From positions 190,008 to 254,007 of the forward strand of contig JAFROX010000006.1 in the NCBI GenBank assembly GCA_017429475.1: 64,000 nt of DNA, written 5' to 3'. The first letter of the stretch is position 1. Each line of letters starts with the position of its first letter. The position numbers were made by a program, and so were the translations under genes. The notes beneath the pieces were generated by a model. The model did not search any database, was not told the origin of the DNA, and saw nothing but the letters and a program-made list of their open reading frames with translations. Shown in pieces: positions 30,648-36,954 of this stretch. The DNA comes from Bacteroidales bacterium. GTDB taxonomy: Bacteria; Bacteroidota; Bacteroidia; Bacteroidales; UBA932.

Positions 30648-32147
30648 ATGCGTGATTTATATAAAAGATACATTCAAGGAGATAAGGCGGTTATTCCATA
30701 TGGAGTAACCATTATTGAATCCAACGCTTTTGGATGCTGCGTTGGTCTTGTATCCGTTGAGATTCCCAATAGCGTAATAAGAATTGAAGATTTCGCCTTC
30801 CATGGATGCAAAGACCTTTCCTCTATTGAGATTCCCAATAGCGTGACGGAGATTGGAGATTTCGCATTTAAGGGATGTACTGGTCTTACATCGATTGAGA
30901 TTCCCGATAGTGTCAAGGCAATTGGAGTAGCTGCTTTTGAAAGTTGTTCAGCACTTTCTTTCGTTGAGATTCCCGACAGTGTGACGAAGATTAAACATTA
31001 CACCTTTGATGGATGTGCTAGTCTTTCATCCATCGAGATTCCTGATAGTGTTACGGAGATTGGATGTAACGCATTTAGGGGATGTGCTGGCCTTACCTCC
31101 ATCAAGATTCCCGATAGCGTGACTAATATTGATGGAAATATTTTGAGTTATTGTCCGAAAATAACTTCGTTGATTGTCTCTAAAGGTAACGAACATTACT
31201 ATTCAATAGACAATTGTATTTTAGCTGATGCTGGGAGGACCCTTATTATAGGGTGTTATAGCTCCATTATTCCCAATACCGTGACGAAGATTGGGAATTC
31301 CGCTTTTCGTGGCTGTTCTAGCCTCACTTCCATCGAGATTCCCAATAGCGTGACGGAAATAGGTTATGATGCTTTTGACGATTGTATTAGTCTTACATCC
31401 ATCGAGATTCCTGATAGTGTTACTGAGATTGGAAATAACGCTTTTAGTGGATGTTCCAGCCTTGCATCAATTGAGATTCCTAATAGCGTGACGGAAATGG
31501 GATCCGCTTTTATTGATTGTAATAGTCTTGTGTCCATCAATATTTCCAATAGCGTGAAAAGATTATATTACGCTTTTTTCGGATGTACTGGTCTTACCTC
31601 CATCAAGATTCCCAATAGTGTAACGGAGATTGGTAGTTCTGCTTTTGAGGGATGTGCTGGTCTTACCTCCATCAAGATTCCCAATAGTGTTACTGAGATT
31701 GGAGATCACGCTTTTAGTGGATGTTCCAGCCTTGCATCCATCGAGATTCCCAATAGCGTAACGGAGATTGGATATTCCGCTTTTAGTGGATGCACTAGCC
31801 TTACATCCATTGAGATTCCCGATAGTGTGACGAAGATTGGCGGTTCCGCTTTTGAGGGATGCACAGGCCTTTCAGCCATTGAGATGCCAAGGAGTGTTAC
31901 TGTAATTGGAAGATATACTTTTAGCGGGTGTATACTAAAGGCGTTAAGAGTATTTGTTAAAGATCCTGAAATAGTAGAATCTCTTCTTGATGATACTGGT
32001 TTGGCTTGTTCAAATTTATCTCTTTACGTACCAGTTGGGACTGGTTATGCATTTCGTCAACGCGAATTCTTCAAGAAATTCAAGGATGTCAAGGCAACAG
32101 GTAAGTGGCCATATGTGGAGCGGAAAATCAGTGAATTAACAGAATAG
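30648..32147 (+). CDS. BspA-like leucine-rich repeat protein without signal peptide
   Basis: 499 residues, almost all of it about 17 LRR_5 repeats of 22-23 residues with the pattern SIEIPNSVTEIGxxAFxGCxxLT. One longer unit near residues 165-215 breaks the series. A short capping domain ends the protein (about 435-499). LRR_5 proteins of this type are normally secreted or surface-bound adhesins, but here the N-terminus (MRDLYKRYIQGDKAVIPYGV) shows no signal peptide or lipobox. It may be cytoplasmic or have lost its leader. The repeats are alike also at the DNA level (about 69 bp), so unit number can change by recombination. Confidence 0.85.
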   Translation: MRDLYKRYIQGDKAVIPYGVTIIESNAFGCCVGLVSVEIPNSVIRIEDFAFHGCKDLSSIEIPNSVTEIGDFAFKGCTGLTSIEIPDSVKAIGVAAFESCSALSFVEIPDSVTKIKHYTFDGCASLSSIEIPDSVTEIGCNAFRGCAGLTSIKIPDSVTNIDGNILSYCPKITSLIVSKGNEHYYSIDNCILADAGRTLIIGCYSSIIPNTVTKIGNSAFRGCSSLTSIEIPNSVTEIGYDAFDDCISLTSIEIPDSVTEIGNNAFSGCSSLASIEIPNSVTEMGSAFIDCNSLVSINISNSVKRLYYAFFGCTGLTSIKIPNSVTEIGSSAFEGCAGLTSIKIPNSVTEIGDHAFSGCSSLASIEIPNSVTEIGYSAFSGCTSLTSIEIPDSVTKIGGSAFEGCTGLSAIEMPRSVTVIGRYTFSGCILKALRVFVKDPEIVESLLDDTGLACSNLSLYVPVGTGYAFRQREFFKKFKDVKATGKWPYVERKISELTE

Positions 32148-32528: not shown

Positions 32529-33260
32529 ATGATTGATCCGCAGTATATAAGTAAAATTTTTGCTGGCGATAATGCTGCCTTTCAAAAACTCTACAGAGAA
32601 TGTAGACCTTTGTTTCTTGCGTATTTATCTAAACAATATCCTGATACAAAAGTGTCTCTGCCGAAGTTGTATCAAGATACGATAGTTGAACTATGGTCTC
32701 AAATATATGACCATAAGATTACAGAAGATACATTGAACTGTAAACTCTCTACATACATAATATCCATAGGAAAAAATAAATTAAAAGAAGAAACAAGGAA
32801 TCTGCTGAAGAATTCAAAGCTAAATGCTGGGGAACCTATTTACAAGAAACGCAAAGCGGTTATTGAGGTAATGGACAAGGATGAAGATTACATTAAGAAG
32901 TATCCCCTCCAAAGCAAGAAACAACAAAAAGAACTTGATACAAGAATAAATGATATTCTTTACAAAATCGAAAGTAAGCTCAGGCCAGTTTTTTTATCAG
33001 AAAGTGATCCAATGGTTTTGGAGGAGCTTCAACGTGAAAGACAAGAGAAAATAGAGTATATAACTCAAAAATATATGGAGATGAAATATCCATGTAATAT
33101 GTTATTAAGATACACGTGGTACGACAATATGACAGATAGTAAAATATTGGAAGCATTTGGTGGTTACTTTTCTAATACCGATGTCATTAAGTCCAGAAGG
33201 TATAAATGTCACAAGACTCTATTGAATATGTATAACGCCTGGAAAATATCCCATGAATAG
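32529..33260 (+). CDS. ECF-type sigma factor, divergent
   Basis: 243 residues. Region 2 is seen in AFQKLYRECRPLFLAYLSKQ, the acidic QDTIVELW helix and KLSTYIISIGKNKLKEETR (promoter -10 contact). Region 4 is seen near the C-terminus in CNMLLRYTWYDNMTDSKILE with VIKSRRYKCHKTLLNMY. The linker between them (about 100-190) is longer and more charged than in usual ECF factors. It is followed after 6 bp by a membrane protein that fits an anti-sigma factor, and then by a CHAT protease. Its targets are unknown; it may control its own operon. Confidence 0.75.
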   Translation: MIDPQYISKIFAGDNAAFQKLYRECRPLFLAYLSKQYPDTKVSLPKLYQDTIVELWSQIYDHKITEDTLNCKLSTYIISIGKNKLKEETRNLLKNSKLNAGEPIYKKRKAVIEVMDKDEDYIKKYPLQSKKQQKELDTRINDILYKIESKLRPVFLSESDPMVLEELQRERQEKIEYITQKYMEMKYPCNMLLRYTWYDNMTDSKILEAFGGYFSNTDVIKSRRYKCHKTLLNMYNAWKISHE

Positions 33261-33266
33261 ATTAAT

Positions 33267-34235
33267 ATGAACGAAATCAAACAATACGAAAGGATTCAAG
33301 AGTATCTTCTTGGCAGGATGTCTGACGAAGATCGAGTTGCATTTGAGCGAGAGTTGGATAAAGACGACACTTTGATTGAGCAACGCGAGTATTATATGCC
33401 GGATGAAGATTGTGCTTCATTTAATAGAGAGTTGGATAAGTACGATAATTTGATTGAACAGTGTGAGAATATATCGATGCTTGCTTCTTCTATTTTAAAA
33501 GCTAATCGAAAACTTGACCTTCAGATGGCTTTAGAAGAAATCGAGAAACAAGTATCAGAATCTTCTGCGCCAATAAAGGATGAAGCAGAAATGGAAGCGG
33601 AATTTCAGCAGATAGATCAAGAACTGAGGAAGATGGGAGTCTCCTTTGAAGAACTTAAACCAGATACTAGCCAAATTCAAACAAATCGAACAAAGAGACT
33701 ATTTAAAGCTATTGAACAATGGGTTATTCCGACTGAAAACAGTTCATCTAAGCCAACAAGAGGGAATCAGGCCTCATTCTCCTTATCCTATGTGAGTAGA
33801 ATGGCAATCAGTTTTGCGGTTGCAGCTTCCATAGCGCTGGCCATTGTCTTGCCTTATAATGCGACCAGAGCTTCATCCGGTTTTAATTACGCACCGTCTC
33901 GCCTTGAACCGCAAACCTTTAGGGGAAGTTCATACGATATTCTTGAGAACGCTGTTAATTCATACAATAACAACGATTATGGTGCCGCGTTGTCTTATCT
34001 GGAAGAAGCACAAAACGACTTAGAAGCGAACATATCGCGGCTTGGCGATAACGACTTTGATATCATTATCAAACAGAGTCTGATGGACGAATTGTATCAG
34101 GTTGAATGGTATCGTGCTCTCACCTTAATGAAAGACAAAAAGGTCAAGGAGGCTAAACGCTCTCTTCGTGATATATCTGAATCAAATAGTCCTTACGCAA
34201 ATGAAGCATCTCTAGCCTTAGAGCAGGTTTATTAA
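33267..34235 (+). CDS. Transmembrane putative anti-sigma factor with TPR-like periplasmic domain
   Basis: 322 residues. The N-terminal helical part has the pattern IQEYLLGRMSDEDRVAFERE, common in Bacteroidota proteins encoded after ECF sigma genes. A 26-residue unit is duplicated in tandem (18-43 and 44-69; both have D-E-D, F, RELDK and NLIEQ/TLIEQ). A single transmembrane segment lies at about 178-198, so the N-terminal 177 residues should be cytoplasmic. The C-terminal part (about 220-322) has a TPR-like pattern (NSYNNNDYGAALSYLEEAQN) and should be periplasmic. Role as anti-sigma factor is inferred from topology and gene order. Confidence 0.6.
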   Translation: MNEIKQYERIQEYLLGRMSDEDRVAFERELDKDDTLIEQREYYMPDEDCASFNRELDKYDNLIEQCENISMLASSILKANRKLDLQMALEEIEKQVSESSAPIKDEAEMEAEFQQIDQELRKMGVSFEELKPDTSQIQTNRTKRLFKAIEQWVIPTENSSSKPTRGNQASFSLSYVSRMAISFAVAASIALAIVLPYNATRASSGFNYAPSRLEPQTFRGSSYDILENAVNSYNNNDYGAALSYLEEAQNDLEANISRLGDNDFDIIIKQSLMDELYQVEWYRALTLMKDKKVKEAKRSLRDISESNSPYANEASLALEQVY

Positions 34236-34267
34236 TCAGTCGGTATCAACTGAATCCATTGTTTATT

Positions 34268-36880
34268 ATGATCCGGCATATAAACGCCATCTTTCTATGT
34301 GTATTCTTTCTTGCAGTTGTTTCCTGTAAGAGTAATAGACATTTTGATAAGGCCAACTATCTGGACTCTTGTAAAATATCAACGGATTCAATGATTCTTC
34401 CTGACTATTTGGAAGATTCATTATCAACCATTTCTTTTATAGATGGTACTGACTCTATCCTTTTATCGCATAGGTCCCACTTTCTCCACGATAACAACTT
34501 AAACTCTTGTGCACTCCTATTGCGTGGGTTGGCGAATAAGTACTTATTTTCAAAAGAAGACTCATTATTACTTGGCCACTATTATGCAAAGGGGGTGTGT
34601 GAAACAGGGGATGCAAAGGACGTTATTTCCTTGACTCTTAACTATGCGAAAATGCTCTCTTTTGAGCGTAGGAGATTAGTGGGGGAAGTATCCTTTCCGA
34701 TAGCTAAGGATATTAATGATACTTTAGCAGCGCAGTCTATCTTTCGAATTGTAGAAGGGATTATTGCGTCGAACGAGGAATCTGTTTCTGATTCTGATGC
34801 TAAAACTGTGGTGGAATGGTGCAAGATAGGACAGGTTTATGCCGAATCTGCCTTTAATGAAGGTGAGGCCAGTTATCACTATCTATTAGAGAAACTTACA
34901 TATTACAGTTGGAAGACGAAAGCTAGAGATTGGCAAGCATATGCCGACTCGCTATTTGCGTATAAAAGTCGGAGAGGCTCTGCCGAGATAGATTTTGAAG
35001 GGCCTTTCTATGATAGTTACTTGAATGCTTTGAAGGAAAGCAATTATGATAAGGCCGAGAGTATTCTTGATTACTATTCTCGGAGTTTGATTAATGTCGA
35101 TTCTGTATATGTTCCATTAAATCTATATCTTCCTGAACGACCACGGCGGGATTATCGTGCTCCCATTGATTCTTCAATGACAACATCCGAGATGGTTGTA
35201 GCTGAATTATCACGAGATATCCTATGGCCGATGATAAAAGGGTTATTAGGAGACAAATTGGATCTGGAAACCGTTTGTTGTTTTGAAAAGGCTAGATTGG
35301 GATATTTGAGGGGAGATTCGGATTACTCCAAATGGCTTAATCGCGCTTTTTATAGAGGAGTTACCCGGACTTTTCCGGCTACTGCGTACGAGTATATAGA
35401 CAATTATTTGCGCCCGGAGCATAAGTACAATCAAGGGATGATTGATTTACTCACTCGTCAGTATAACAACGATAACCCCAAAAGTGTTTATGATGCTTTA
35501 TTATTTGTCAAGGGCGCGAGCGAGATTATCCCACCTTCTATTTATCGAGACATTAAACAGCATTCTCCTCAGGAAATAGTTGATTATGTTGATTCAATTC
35601 GCGTTTACGATATTGACAGTCGTAATGGCATTGAACGCGATTTTTTGGAAAACGAGATTGGTGTCAACGTTAAGTCAATTCTACATGAAAGCATTTCTTC
35701 TTATTCAGATATTAAGTCTTGCTTAAAACCGACAGATGTCGCAATAGAGTTTTATGCCGCGCCCTCACTAGATCTCGCCGAAAACTACTCATATCGGGCC
35801 ACTGTACTATGCGCTGATTATGATGAACCAGCTATTGTTGAAATATGCTCAAATACCGCATTAAGGGATTTGTTGCTAAATAAAGAACTGTATTCTAAAG
35901 ACAGGGCCTATCAGGTTATTATAGCCCCATTAGAGAAGTATTTGGATGGGAAGAACACAGTTTATTTTTCTATGGACGGCCTTCTTTATTTATGTAATCT
36001 GCCTGCATTATTAACGCCTAAAGGAACACGCTTAGGACAAGATTATGTGTTTAAACAGTTGACTTCTACACGAGTGATACTATCCTTTTCGGACACGACA
36101 CCATGTAAATCGATAGCGCTTTTTGGAGGGATAGATTATGATGGAGATAGCCGGGAAGATAGAAACAATTCCAATCTATTATCGGTGAATCATGTGACAC
36201 CAAAGAGCCTATTGCGCTCTTTTAATCGAAGCGACTTTAGTCCATTGCCTTTTTCAAGACAAGAGATTGATGATATTTCGCAACAAGCCGCGTCCAACGG
36301 GTTAAGTGTTCAGTATTTTTCTGCTGAAGATGGAACAGAATGTGCGTTAAAAAACTTGTCTGGCAAGACAATATCTATCCTACATATAGCAACGCATGGG
36401 TTTTACTATTCCCAAAAGCAATCACAGGAGATTAGCTATCTAAATATGATTAATCAAGATGACAATCCTTTGAACAGATGTGGCTTGCTGTTGGCTGGGA
36501 GTAAAAATACCTGGAAAAATGGCAAGTCTTCGCCGGATAAAGAGGATGGAATTCTATTTGGCGAAGAAATAGCAAAACTCGACTTCACAAATGTCGATTT
36601 GGTTGTCCTTTCGGCATGTAAATCCGCATTAGGGGACATTAATAGTGAGGGGGTTACGGGTTTGCGACAAGCATTTAAAAGAGCCGGAGTGAGGTCTATC
36701 TTGATAACACTAAACAATGTTGATGACCAAGCAACCGCTTTTTTTATGCGAGCTTTTTATGAGAAACTATTCACTACCAAGGACAAGTATGAGGCATATG
36801 AATATGCCATTAACCAGATGAAATCATCAACTGAGTTTTCTTCAGCATCTTATTGGGCTCCTTTTGTGTTAATTGACTAA
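34268..36880 (+). CDS. CHAT-domain (caspase-like) protease lipoprotein
   Basis: 870 residues. A lipoprotein signal ends in the lipobox LAVVSC, so the protein should be anchored outside the cytoplasm. Residues about 30-480 look like a helical solenoid of TPR type, weakly conserved. The C-terminal CHAT domain (about 545-870) is clear: catalytic His in HIATHGFYY (His710), catalytic Cys in VVLSACKSALGDINSEGVTG (Cys784), and the typical GLRQAFKRAGVRSILITLNN with FFMRAFYEKL. CHAT proteins are caspase/separase-type cysteine proteases. The ATG at 34268 is preferred to a TTG three codons upstream. Third and last gene of the sigma operon; a terminator follows. Confidence 0.85.
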   Translation: MIRHINAIFLCVFFLAVVSCKSNRHFDKANYLDSCKISTDSMILPDYLEDSLSTISFIDGTDSILLSHRSHFLHDNNLNSCALLLRGLANKYLFSKEDSLLLGHYYAKGVCETGDAKDVISLTLNYAKMLSFERRRLVGEVSFPIAKDINDTLAAQSIFRIVEGIIASNEESVSDSDAKTVVEWCKIGQVYAESAFNEGEASYHYLLEKLTYYSWKTKARDWQAYADSLFAYKSRRGSAEIDFEGPFYDSYLNALKESNYDKAESILDYYSRSLINVDSVYVPLNLYLPERPRRDYRAPIDSSMTTSEMVVAELSRDILWPMIKGLLGDKLDLETVCCFEKARLGYLRGDSDYSKWLNRAFYRGVTRTFPATAYEYIDNYLRPEHKYNQGMIDLLTRQYNNDNPKSVYDALLFVKGASEIIPPSIYRDIKQHSPQEIVDYVDSIRVYDIDSRNGIERDFLENEIGVNVKSILHESISSYSDIKSCLKPTDVAIEFYAAPSLDLAENYSYRATVLCADYDEPAIVEICSNTALRDLLLNKELYSKDRAYQVIIAPLEKYLDGKNTVYFSMDGLLYLCNLPALLTPKGTRLGQDYVFKQLTSTRVILSFSDTTPCKSIALFGGIDYDGDSREDRNNSNLLSVNHVTPKSLLRSFNRSDFSPLPFSRQEIDDISQQAASNGLSVQYFSAEDGTECALKNLSGKTISILHIATHGFYYSQKQSQEISYLNMINQDDNPLNRCGLLLAGSKNTWKNGKSSPDKEDGILFGEEIAKLDFTNVDLVVLSACKSALGDINSEGVTGLRQAFKRAGVRSILITLNNVDDQATAFFMRAFYEKLFTTKDKYEAYEYAINQMKSSTEFSSASYWAPFVLID

Positions 36881-36917
36881 AAACGTTCTCGCTTTCTAAA
36901 CAATAAAGATATAGTTG

Positions 36918-36954
36918 AAGGAGGTGGCCTGAGCGGTTACCTCCTTTTCTTTTT
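36918..36954 (+). terminator. Terminator of the sigma/anti-sigma/CHAT operon
   Basis: AAGGAGGT (36918-36925) pairs with ACCTCCTT (36939-36946), followed by TTCTTTTT. It marks the three genes as one transcription unit. Confidence 0.75.

Follow-up and report, generated by a model that had tools for sequence, protein, structure and literature searches.

Can a caspase-type protease placed outside the bacterial cytoplasm control transcription inside it? The question is raised by a three-gene operon in a 64,000-nucleotide stretch of a Bacteroidales bacterium (assembly GCA_017429475.1, contig JAFROX010000006.1; hereafter the window), which encodes an extracytoplasmic function (ECF)-type sigma factor, a single-span membrane protein resembling anti-sigma factors, and a lipoprotein with a CHAT protease domain. 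Our computational analysis supports the linkage of the three genes, the predicted topology and export of their products, the catalytic dyad of the protease, a conserved site in the linker of the anti-sigma-like proteins, and the frequent loss of that site where CHAT is missing. We consider that the CHAT protein is probably the site-1 protease, cutting the anti-sigma factor on the outer side of the inner membrane, a reading drawn from sequence comparisons.

An operon for an ECF sigma factor, a membrane anti-sigma-like protein, and a CHAT protease

The three open reading frames (ORFs) are collinear on the plus strand, with intergenic gaps of 6 and 32 bp. This agrees with the original prediction, made from the letters of this DNA, which had described an ECF sigma factor, a single-span anti-sigma-like protein with a tetratricopeptide repeat (TPR)-like outer part, and a CHAT lipoprotein with a complete His/Cys dyad. 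The source genome is a 2.03-Mb draft, 80% complete. The features, in window coordinates, are the following:

32529..33260, plus strand: ECF-type sigma factor, 243 aa
33267..34235, plus strand: single-span membrane anti-sigma-like protein, 322 aa
33801..33857, plus strand: predicted membrane helix, residues 179-197 of the anti-sigma-like protein (helix 174-199 in the model)
33921..33923, plus strand: codon of Arg219, in the conserved Arg-Gly/Ser of the linker; proposed P1 residue for cleavage
33930..34229, plus strand: outer TPR-like helical domain, residues 222-321 (profile and structure model)
34268..36880, plus strand: CHAT protease, lipoprotein, 870 aa from the ATG (the longest ORF starts at TTG 34259)
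34268..34327, plus strand: putative signal peptide and lipobox ending at Cys20 (from the pattern VVSC in the sequence)
35906..36874, plus strand: CHAT domain (PF12770; Pfam match)
36395..36397, plus strand: codon of catalytic His710 (His in 91/91 paired CHATs)
36617..36619, plus strand: codon of catalytic Cys784 (Cys in 91/91 paired CHATs)
36725..36727, plus strand: codon of Asp820, proposed S1-pocket acid (role by separase analogy only)
36917..36947, plus strand: terminator-like hairpin, 13 pairs followed by a T run

By the profile of its family, the first gene is an ECF-type sigma factor. The window protein alone is a weak match, both to Pfam Sigma70_r2 (E 0.19) and to the NCBIfam sigma model (5.6e-5, under the model cut-off). 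A 24-row profile of this protein and its CHAT-linked relatives has sigma regions 2 and 4 and matches solved ECF sigma factors (best E 2.5e-19); the sigma70-ECF model TIGR02937 recognises 22 of its 24 rows. The stretch between regions 2 and 4 is longer in the window protein than in its relatives.

The middle protein alone gave no convincing family in family-model searches, and an initial scan of genome contigs with it found no relative. In an alignment of 42 rows, 12 match the NCBIfam anti-sigma model, the window row itself not among them, and TPR proteins match the profile over its outer part. The predicted layout is that of single-span anti-sigma factors, with a cytoplasmic N-terminal part, one membrane helix, and an outer domain. 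An AlphaFold2 model built from the same alignment (mean pLDDT 79.5, pTM 0.44) shows N-terminal helices, a helix at 174-199 containing the membrane span, residues 200-221 without regular structure, and helical repeats at 222-321, where pLDDT is mostly 90-97. Foldseek found no PDB match to this model at E<=0.001; the partial matches were to TPR-like peptide-binding domains. The layout and the family matches of the relatives suggest that the middle protein would bind and inhibit the sigma factor. Its N-terminal part (gene at 33267-34235) also holds an internal repeat, SDEDRVAFERELDKDDTLIEQ and PDEDCASFNRELDKYDNLIEQ, of a type not seen by eye in the other 26 rows of the anti-sigma alignment.

The third protein is a clear match to the CHAT family (PF12770, E 1.1e-47) and the only CHAT match in its draft genome; Pfam gave no other domain over cut-off in it, and found no TPR there. 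The catalytic residues are His710 and Cys784 when counted from the ATG, the latter being the number given in the original prediction. Both are intact in all of the 91 CHATs paired with an anti-sigma match (three of these pairings are with false anti-sigma matches), and proteolytic activity is predicted for the window protein. Most paired CHATs are predicted to be exported: by a simple hydropathy rule, an N-terminal hydrophobic stretch is present in 74 of the 91 and a C-terminal membrane helix in 67; 57 have both and seven neither, and four of these seven seem by eye to start with a signal peptide. The 84 with export or membrane features fit the placement of the protease outside the cytoplasm that had been proposed.

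These data bear on a scheme in which CHAT and the anti-sigma factor only bind each other as a sensor complex, a change of shape rather than a cut releasing the sigma factor. By profile comparison, each family has TPR-like repeats in its outer part (none by Pfam in the window CHAT), as such a complex would allow; yet binding alone accounts neither for a catalytic dyad intact in 91/91 proteins nor for a conserved residue that lies in a flexible linker outside the TPR domain (see below). We regard this scheme as very improbable.

Co-occurrence of the three genes

The original prediction had made much depend on whether the three genes occur together in other genomes, and searches in both directions, from CHAT to sigma factor and from an anti-sigma profile to CHAT, found that they do. 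At the family level, 149 genomes contained CHAT relatives in 16 and relatives of the middle protein in four (own genome included); these include G103 and G041, each with both relatives on one contig. CHAT is present in half of the sampled genomes of the phylum (148/296), not always beside a sigma factor. We took 20 family-level loci, 18 of which held a CHAT ORF, and 40 phylum CHAT loci chosen by hand from the top of the list to spread over families. In 9/18 and 15/40 of these, respectively, CHAT has a sigma factor no more than 5 kb away. The background density of sigma matches (370 in 84.3 Mb, from 20 genomes with rounded sizes and a closely related profile) predicts a match in about 6% of 13-kb spans, against which 15/40 has a binomial probability of about 2e-9.

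For the reverse search, a 22-row profile of the middle protein, built from CHAT-linked members, was run on the 296 phylum genomes. It gave at least 150 matches, with weaker ones beyond these, and at least 61 of the 150 listed lie within 8 kb of a listed CHAT. Among the 103 matches in genomes outside those from which profile rows were chosen, at least 38 are CHAT-adjacent; 20 of these 38 loci were fetched and all 20 contained a CHAT. The 60 strongest of the 89 listed anti-sigma matches other than those 61 had a CHAT within the fetched stretch of 12-19 kb in 44 cases. Thus, CHAT is nearby in 105 of the 121 examined among the 150 listed matches. The anti-sigma gene has a sigma gene no further than 6 kb away in 53/60 and 14/20 of the fetched loci.

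The association also held among named genomes. The best 80 of 564 confirmed CHAT relatives in GTDB genomes are, by their titles, nearly all from Bacteroidota, mainly gut and rumen Bacteroidales, with two from Firmicutes and one unassigned. These 80 loci contain 15 sigma/anti-sigma pairs that are no more than 7.4 kb from a CHAT; with a limit of 5 kb, a sigma factor is present in 15 and both partners in 14. Three loci of this set (L301, L303, L321) are identical to earlier ones (L036, L046, L033), none of them among the 15 pairs. The closest relative of the window CHAT (L243, 45% identity, from the MAG RUG12500) has the identical three-gene order.

In the same named set, 65/80 CHATs have no sigma factor within 5 kb. 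This is explained in part by short contigs, and it implies that CHAT has other jobs too. It also fits a different role in the pathway, in which CHAT is an output: the sigma factor would be switched on by other means and drive its own operon, exported effector protease included. In 54 loci the sigma gene and CHAT are within 6.5 kb of each other on opposite strands, as target genes may be. A two-box word upstream of both units occurs in 9/54 of these loci versus 24/427 mismatched pairs, which is not convincing as a shared promoter and may reflect A+T-richness. One arrangement with opposite strands recurs in family f24 (L107, L113, L115, L118, L161, and similar loci), where CHAT lies between the anti-sigma and sigma genes.

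A conserved arginine just outside the membrane

An alignment of 109 anti-sigma matches has a conserved column in the linker just outside the membrane (R 90, K 10, and M 5 over 108 rows). Three TPR proteins mistaken for anti-sigma factors (L032, L060, L065) were dropped from the later linker and pair counts, giving R 90, K 8, and M 5 of 105. It ranks fourth in information content among 226 columns, in an alignment whose median pairwise identity is 19%. Among 73 rows at most 50% identical to each other, R occurs in 57, K in 8, and M in 5; the position that follows holds G in 31 rows and S in 27. The site lies at a near-fixed distance from the membrane, 19-27 residues past the helix (10th-90th percentile; median 23). 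Its counterpart in the window protein is Arg219, which precedes Gly-Ser and stands 22 residues past the predicted helix, and the model places it in the unstructured linker ahead of the first TPR helix.

Counted by a simple motif, R followed by G, S, A, N, or T at 16-30 aa past the helix, the site is present in 54/72 nonredundant proteins versus a mean of 12 and a maximum of 23 in 1000 shuffles. It recurs in 12 of the 15 sigma-linked anti-sigma factors of the named set, whose loci match no earlier locus at >=90% DNA identity. A control set of other single-span proteins downstream of a sigma gene yielded five, too few for a conclusion, one of them with the motif (47/63 for the TPR type). The original prediction had proposed cleavage of the outer part and had not described this Arg-Gly/Ser site, which would give the idea a concrete form.

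We then compared anti-sigma factors by the presence of CHAT, checking 12 genomes in which CHAT had no match. Two of eight anti-sigma factors from CHAT-less genomes retain the aligned Arg, against 11/12 from CHAT-bearing genomes in which the CHAT is not in the fetched stretch (Fisher p 0.004, uncorrected for kinship). The six CHAT-less proteins without it have K, K, V, G, T, and Q. A fixed rule, requiring R and a small residue in the zone, gives 2/8 without CHAT, 10/12 with CHAT elsewhere, and 75/89 with CHAT in the stretch. Four of seven proteins from CHAT-less genomes (L239-L242) were excluded as lacking the anti-sigma TPR layout; their aligned letters are S, A, K, and R (L242), and counting L242 would make the tally of the aligned Arg 3/9. 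In one genome without a CHAT match, L236 has at 65-1036 a sigma-like start and an anti-sigma factor joined in one ORF of 323 aa, which may be a decaying or fused copy.

An output role for CHAT leaves unexplained both why the linker Arg should stand at a near-fixed membrane distance and why it should be lost so often in CHAT-less genomes. The latter observation speaks most strongly against it, and we think it unlikely that CHAT is an output.

The same arginine might instead be the cut site of another protease, such as a C14 caspase or a trypsin-like envelope protease, with CHAT acting elsewhere in the pathway. P1 Arg is taken by several enzymes of clan CD, as reported for gingipain-R, MALT1, and separase (PMC4626109), and 12 of 17 anti-sigma factors without a CHAT in the stretch keep the R. 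Genes of C14 caspases, found with a home-made profile, lie within 5 kb of CHAT in 8/18 family loci and 16/80 named loci. Five that were tested pass the PF00656 cut-off (L032, L037, L038, L042, L047), and L250 and L312 rest on the home-made profile. These caspase genes adjoin the sigma gene, forming caspase - sigma - (anti-sigma) - CHAT neighbourhoods, and a simple rule assigns an N-terminal hydrophobic stretch to four of the five checked with Pfam. Against this, C14 genes occur within 5 kb in 0/40 phylum CHAT loci and there is none among the eight neighbours in the window. A separate protease for the site appears improbable to us.

A candidate specificity pocket in CHAT

In CHAT, an acidic column lies 36 residues past the catalytic Cys, at Asp820 in the window protein. 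In separase, an invariant Asp of the catalytic pocket binds the P1 Arg (PMC10317155). We compared this column with the linker residue in 109 anti-sigma/CHAT pairs, 21 of which were added by searches aimed at Glu-type CHATs; for 13 M, 3 K, and 2 R rows the class of the linker was read by eye from the aligned motif. The combinations are R-Asp 88, R-Glu 1, M-Glu 11, M-Asp 2, K-Glu 3, and unclassified 4. Hence the candidate S1 acid is Asp with linker Arg in 88/89 and Glu with Lys or Met in 14/16. The CHAT tree calls for at least four changes of linker class and three of the acid, which gives two to three independent pairs. Because they are so few, the idea that the pocket changes along with the P1 residue is suggestive only. 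The separase Asp lies 41 residues after its Cys; its equivalence with Asp820 is presumed by Cys spacing only, not by structure.

In the sub-family L086, L099, L108, L183, L204-L208, and L217, a PGLPxxM-like motif followed by Ser or Gly (PGLAVVM in L086) replaces the Arg. The CHATs paired with this sub-family have Glu at the proposed S1 position; a further member, L199, is paired with Asp.

A search of the PDB with the whole-protein CHAT profile was swamped by TPR proteins, and we therefore used the CHAT domain alone. It matched eight sequences, some of them chains that the PDB calls CHAT domain protein or TPR-CHAT, with Ser at the position of Asp820. We take these chains to be type III-E proteins. 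The window CHAT has Ala in place of a Pro near the C-terminus that is found in 87/91 paired CHATs.

Proposed signalling and its standing

The operon would be an envelope-signalling switch. Judging from the layout and from the family matches of its relatives, the cytoplasmic N-terminal part of the membrane protein would keep the ECF sigma factor at the inner membrane. The exported CHAT would be activated by a signal from beyond the cytoplasm, perhaps through the TPR-like parts. CHAT would then cut after the linker Arg (Arg219), as the conserved site suggests, and shed the TPR domain. By analogy with RseA, the remaining stub would pass to an RseP-type site-2 protease, and the sigma factor would be freed. 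The source genome does encode an RseP-type M50 protease (PF02163), of a family that is near-universal (14/14 control genomes). The direction of signalling, from the envelope to the sigma factor, is one that we infer.

Several observations weigh against cleavage after the arginine by CHAT. The linker Arg could be recognised rather than cut, and Craspase, the type III-E protease described below, needs no single residue of its substrate, as far as the reported alanine changes of Csx30 go (PMC10028731). When any Arg in the zone is counted, the contrast shrinks to 5/8 in CHAT-less genomes, 11/12 with CHAT elsewhere, and 80/89 with CHAT in the stretch; 4/6 CHAT-less proteins without the aligned Arg have another within about seven residues, two of these before Pro, and the two that keep the linker R come from two genomes of one genus. 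Among the 109 anti-sigma rows, 17 have no CHAT in the stretch, and these include the 12 that keep R. Nearby sigma factors are missing at the 65 of 80 named loci mentioned above. As for the pocket, one R/E and two M/D rows break the Asp/Glu pattern, the sample of pairs was deliberately enriched for Glu-type CHATs, and the pattern is not significant on the tree. Finally, the window CHAT has Asn at a near-invariant Trp (W in 89/91) four residues before Asp820 (36713-36727).

On a wider scale, we tentatively suggest a mode of signalling spread across Bacteroidota, in which caspase-clan site-1 proteases (exported CHAT, in some families together with C14) cut TPR anti-sigma factors by the membrane after an Arg, in the manner of separase; it might be a membrane-spanning, CRISPR-free counterpart of Craspase and possibly the source of the CRISPR-linked module. 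This extension we hold more loosely than the role of CHAT in the operon itself. If the reading is right, many bacteria of a phylum in which half of the sampled genomes have CHAT would use caspase-type regulated proteolysis to control transcription from across the inner membrane. It would provide a function and a substrate for some of the many bacterial CHAT proteases, predict the residue to be cut in each anti-sigma partner, and place the Craspase-type arrangement of protease, sigma inhibitor, and sigma factor in a non-CRISPR setting.

Relation to known systems

The system would work like Craspase and like RseA/DegS/RseP, yet we do not count it as a member of the former. The type III-E Craspase (Cas7-11-Csx29/Csx30/CASP-sigma) likewise brings together in one locus a TPR-CHAT protease, the sigma inhibitor cleaved by it, and an ECF-like sigma factor (PMC10028731). 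The window also combines CHAT, a sigma inhibitor, and an ECF sigma factor in one locus, the inhibitor by homology only. The Craspase protease is activated by target RNA on the CRISPR complex (PMC10028731) and is not known to lie at a membrane. In Csx30 the cut made by Csx29 falls between residues 427 and 429 and is abolished when Met427 is deleted (PMC10028731); it is not at a conserved Arg, unlike the linker site proposed here. Unlike Craspase, too, the window CHAT is predicted to be exported (signal peptide and lipobox), its inhibitor has a predicted membrane span, and the eight neighbouring window proteins include no cas family. On these three grounds we rejected membership in Craspase. The Csx protease and its inhibitor are not known to carry a membrane anchor. 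The absence of any CRISPR part claimed in the original prediction holds for those eight neighbours, to which our search for cas families was limited; the rest of the genome was outside it.

The RseA/DegS/RseP pathway is similar in having a membrane anti-sigma factor that receives a site-1 cut and is then passed to the RseP-type protease. Unlike DegS, a PDZ serine protease, the site-1 protease here would be a caspase-clan cysteine protease. The pathway is also named in the Craspase paper (PMC10028731).

Two other CRISPR-linked systems share single traits. In CalpL-CalpT-CalpS, a protease cuts an anti-sigma factor and frees an ECF sigma factor (PMC11417357, PMC11229360); CalpL differs as a Lon-type protease with a cyclic-nucleotide sensor, as described there, compared with a CHAT that is predicted to act outside the cytoplasm here. 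In the SAVED-CHAT cascade of type III CRISPR, CHAT starts a proteolytic cascade (PMC11229360), and some loci of the present set similarly pair CHAT with a caspase and a sigma factor. SAVED-CHAT is activated by a cyclic nucleotide; the window CHAT differs in having only the CHAT domain over the Pfam cut-off, together with a putative signal peptide.

Among sigma factors, the ECF54 group has proteins of the CHAT, subtilase, and carboxypeptidase types in its gene context, and a proteolytic mode of control that involves no anti-sigma factor has been proposed for it (PMC8999054). It resembles the present loci in linking an ECF sigma factor with CHAT proteins and proteolytic control, and differs, as described in that review, in that an anti-sigma-like gene is present here and no linker site is given for ECF54 (PMC8999054). 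Separase is alike as a clan CD protease whose P1 Arg is bound by the invariant pocket Asp (PMC10317155, PMC4626109) and unlike as a eukaryotic cell-division protease. In a literature search that left preprints and most subscription papers outside, a CHAT domain and an anti-sigma factor appeared together only in the Craspase paper, and the one other CHAT-sigma link found was a sentence of the ECF54 review (PMC8999054), so that an earlier report is possible.

Surroundings of the operon

The operon is followed by the 13-pair hairpin at 36917-36947, in agreement with the closing terminator first noted there; such sites are no commoner in the stretch than in shuffles (2 found versus 2.6), and the count alone is no proof of a terminator. 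The eight neighbouring proteins scanned comprise one DUF2971 protein, one leucine-rich-repeat protein, and six without a family. The leucine-rich-repeat protein, of BspA type (LRR_5, E 2.7e-120), is encoded upstream of the operon at 30648-32147.

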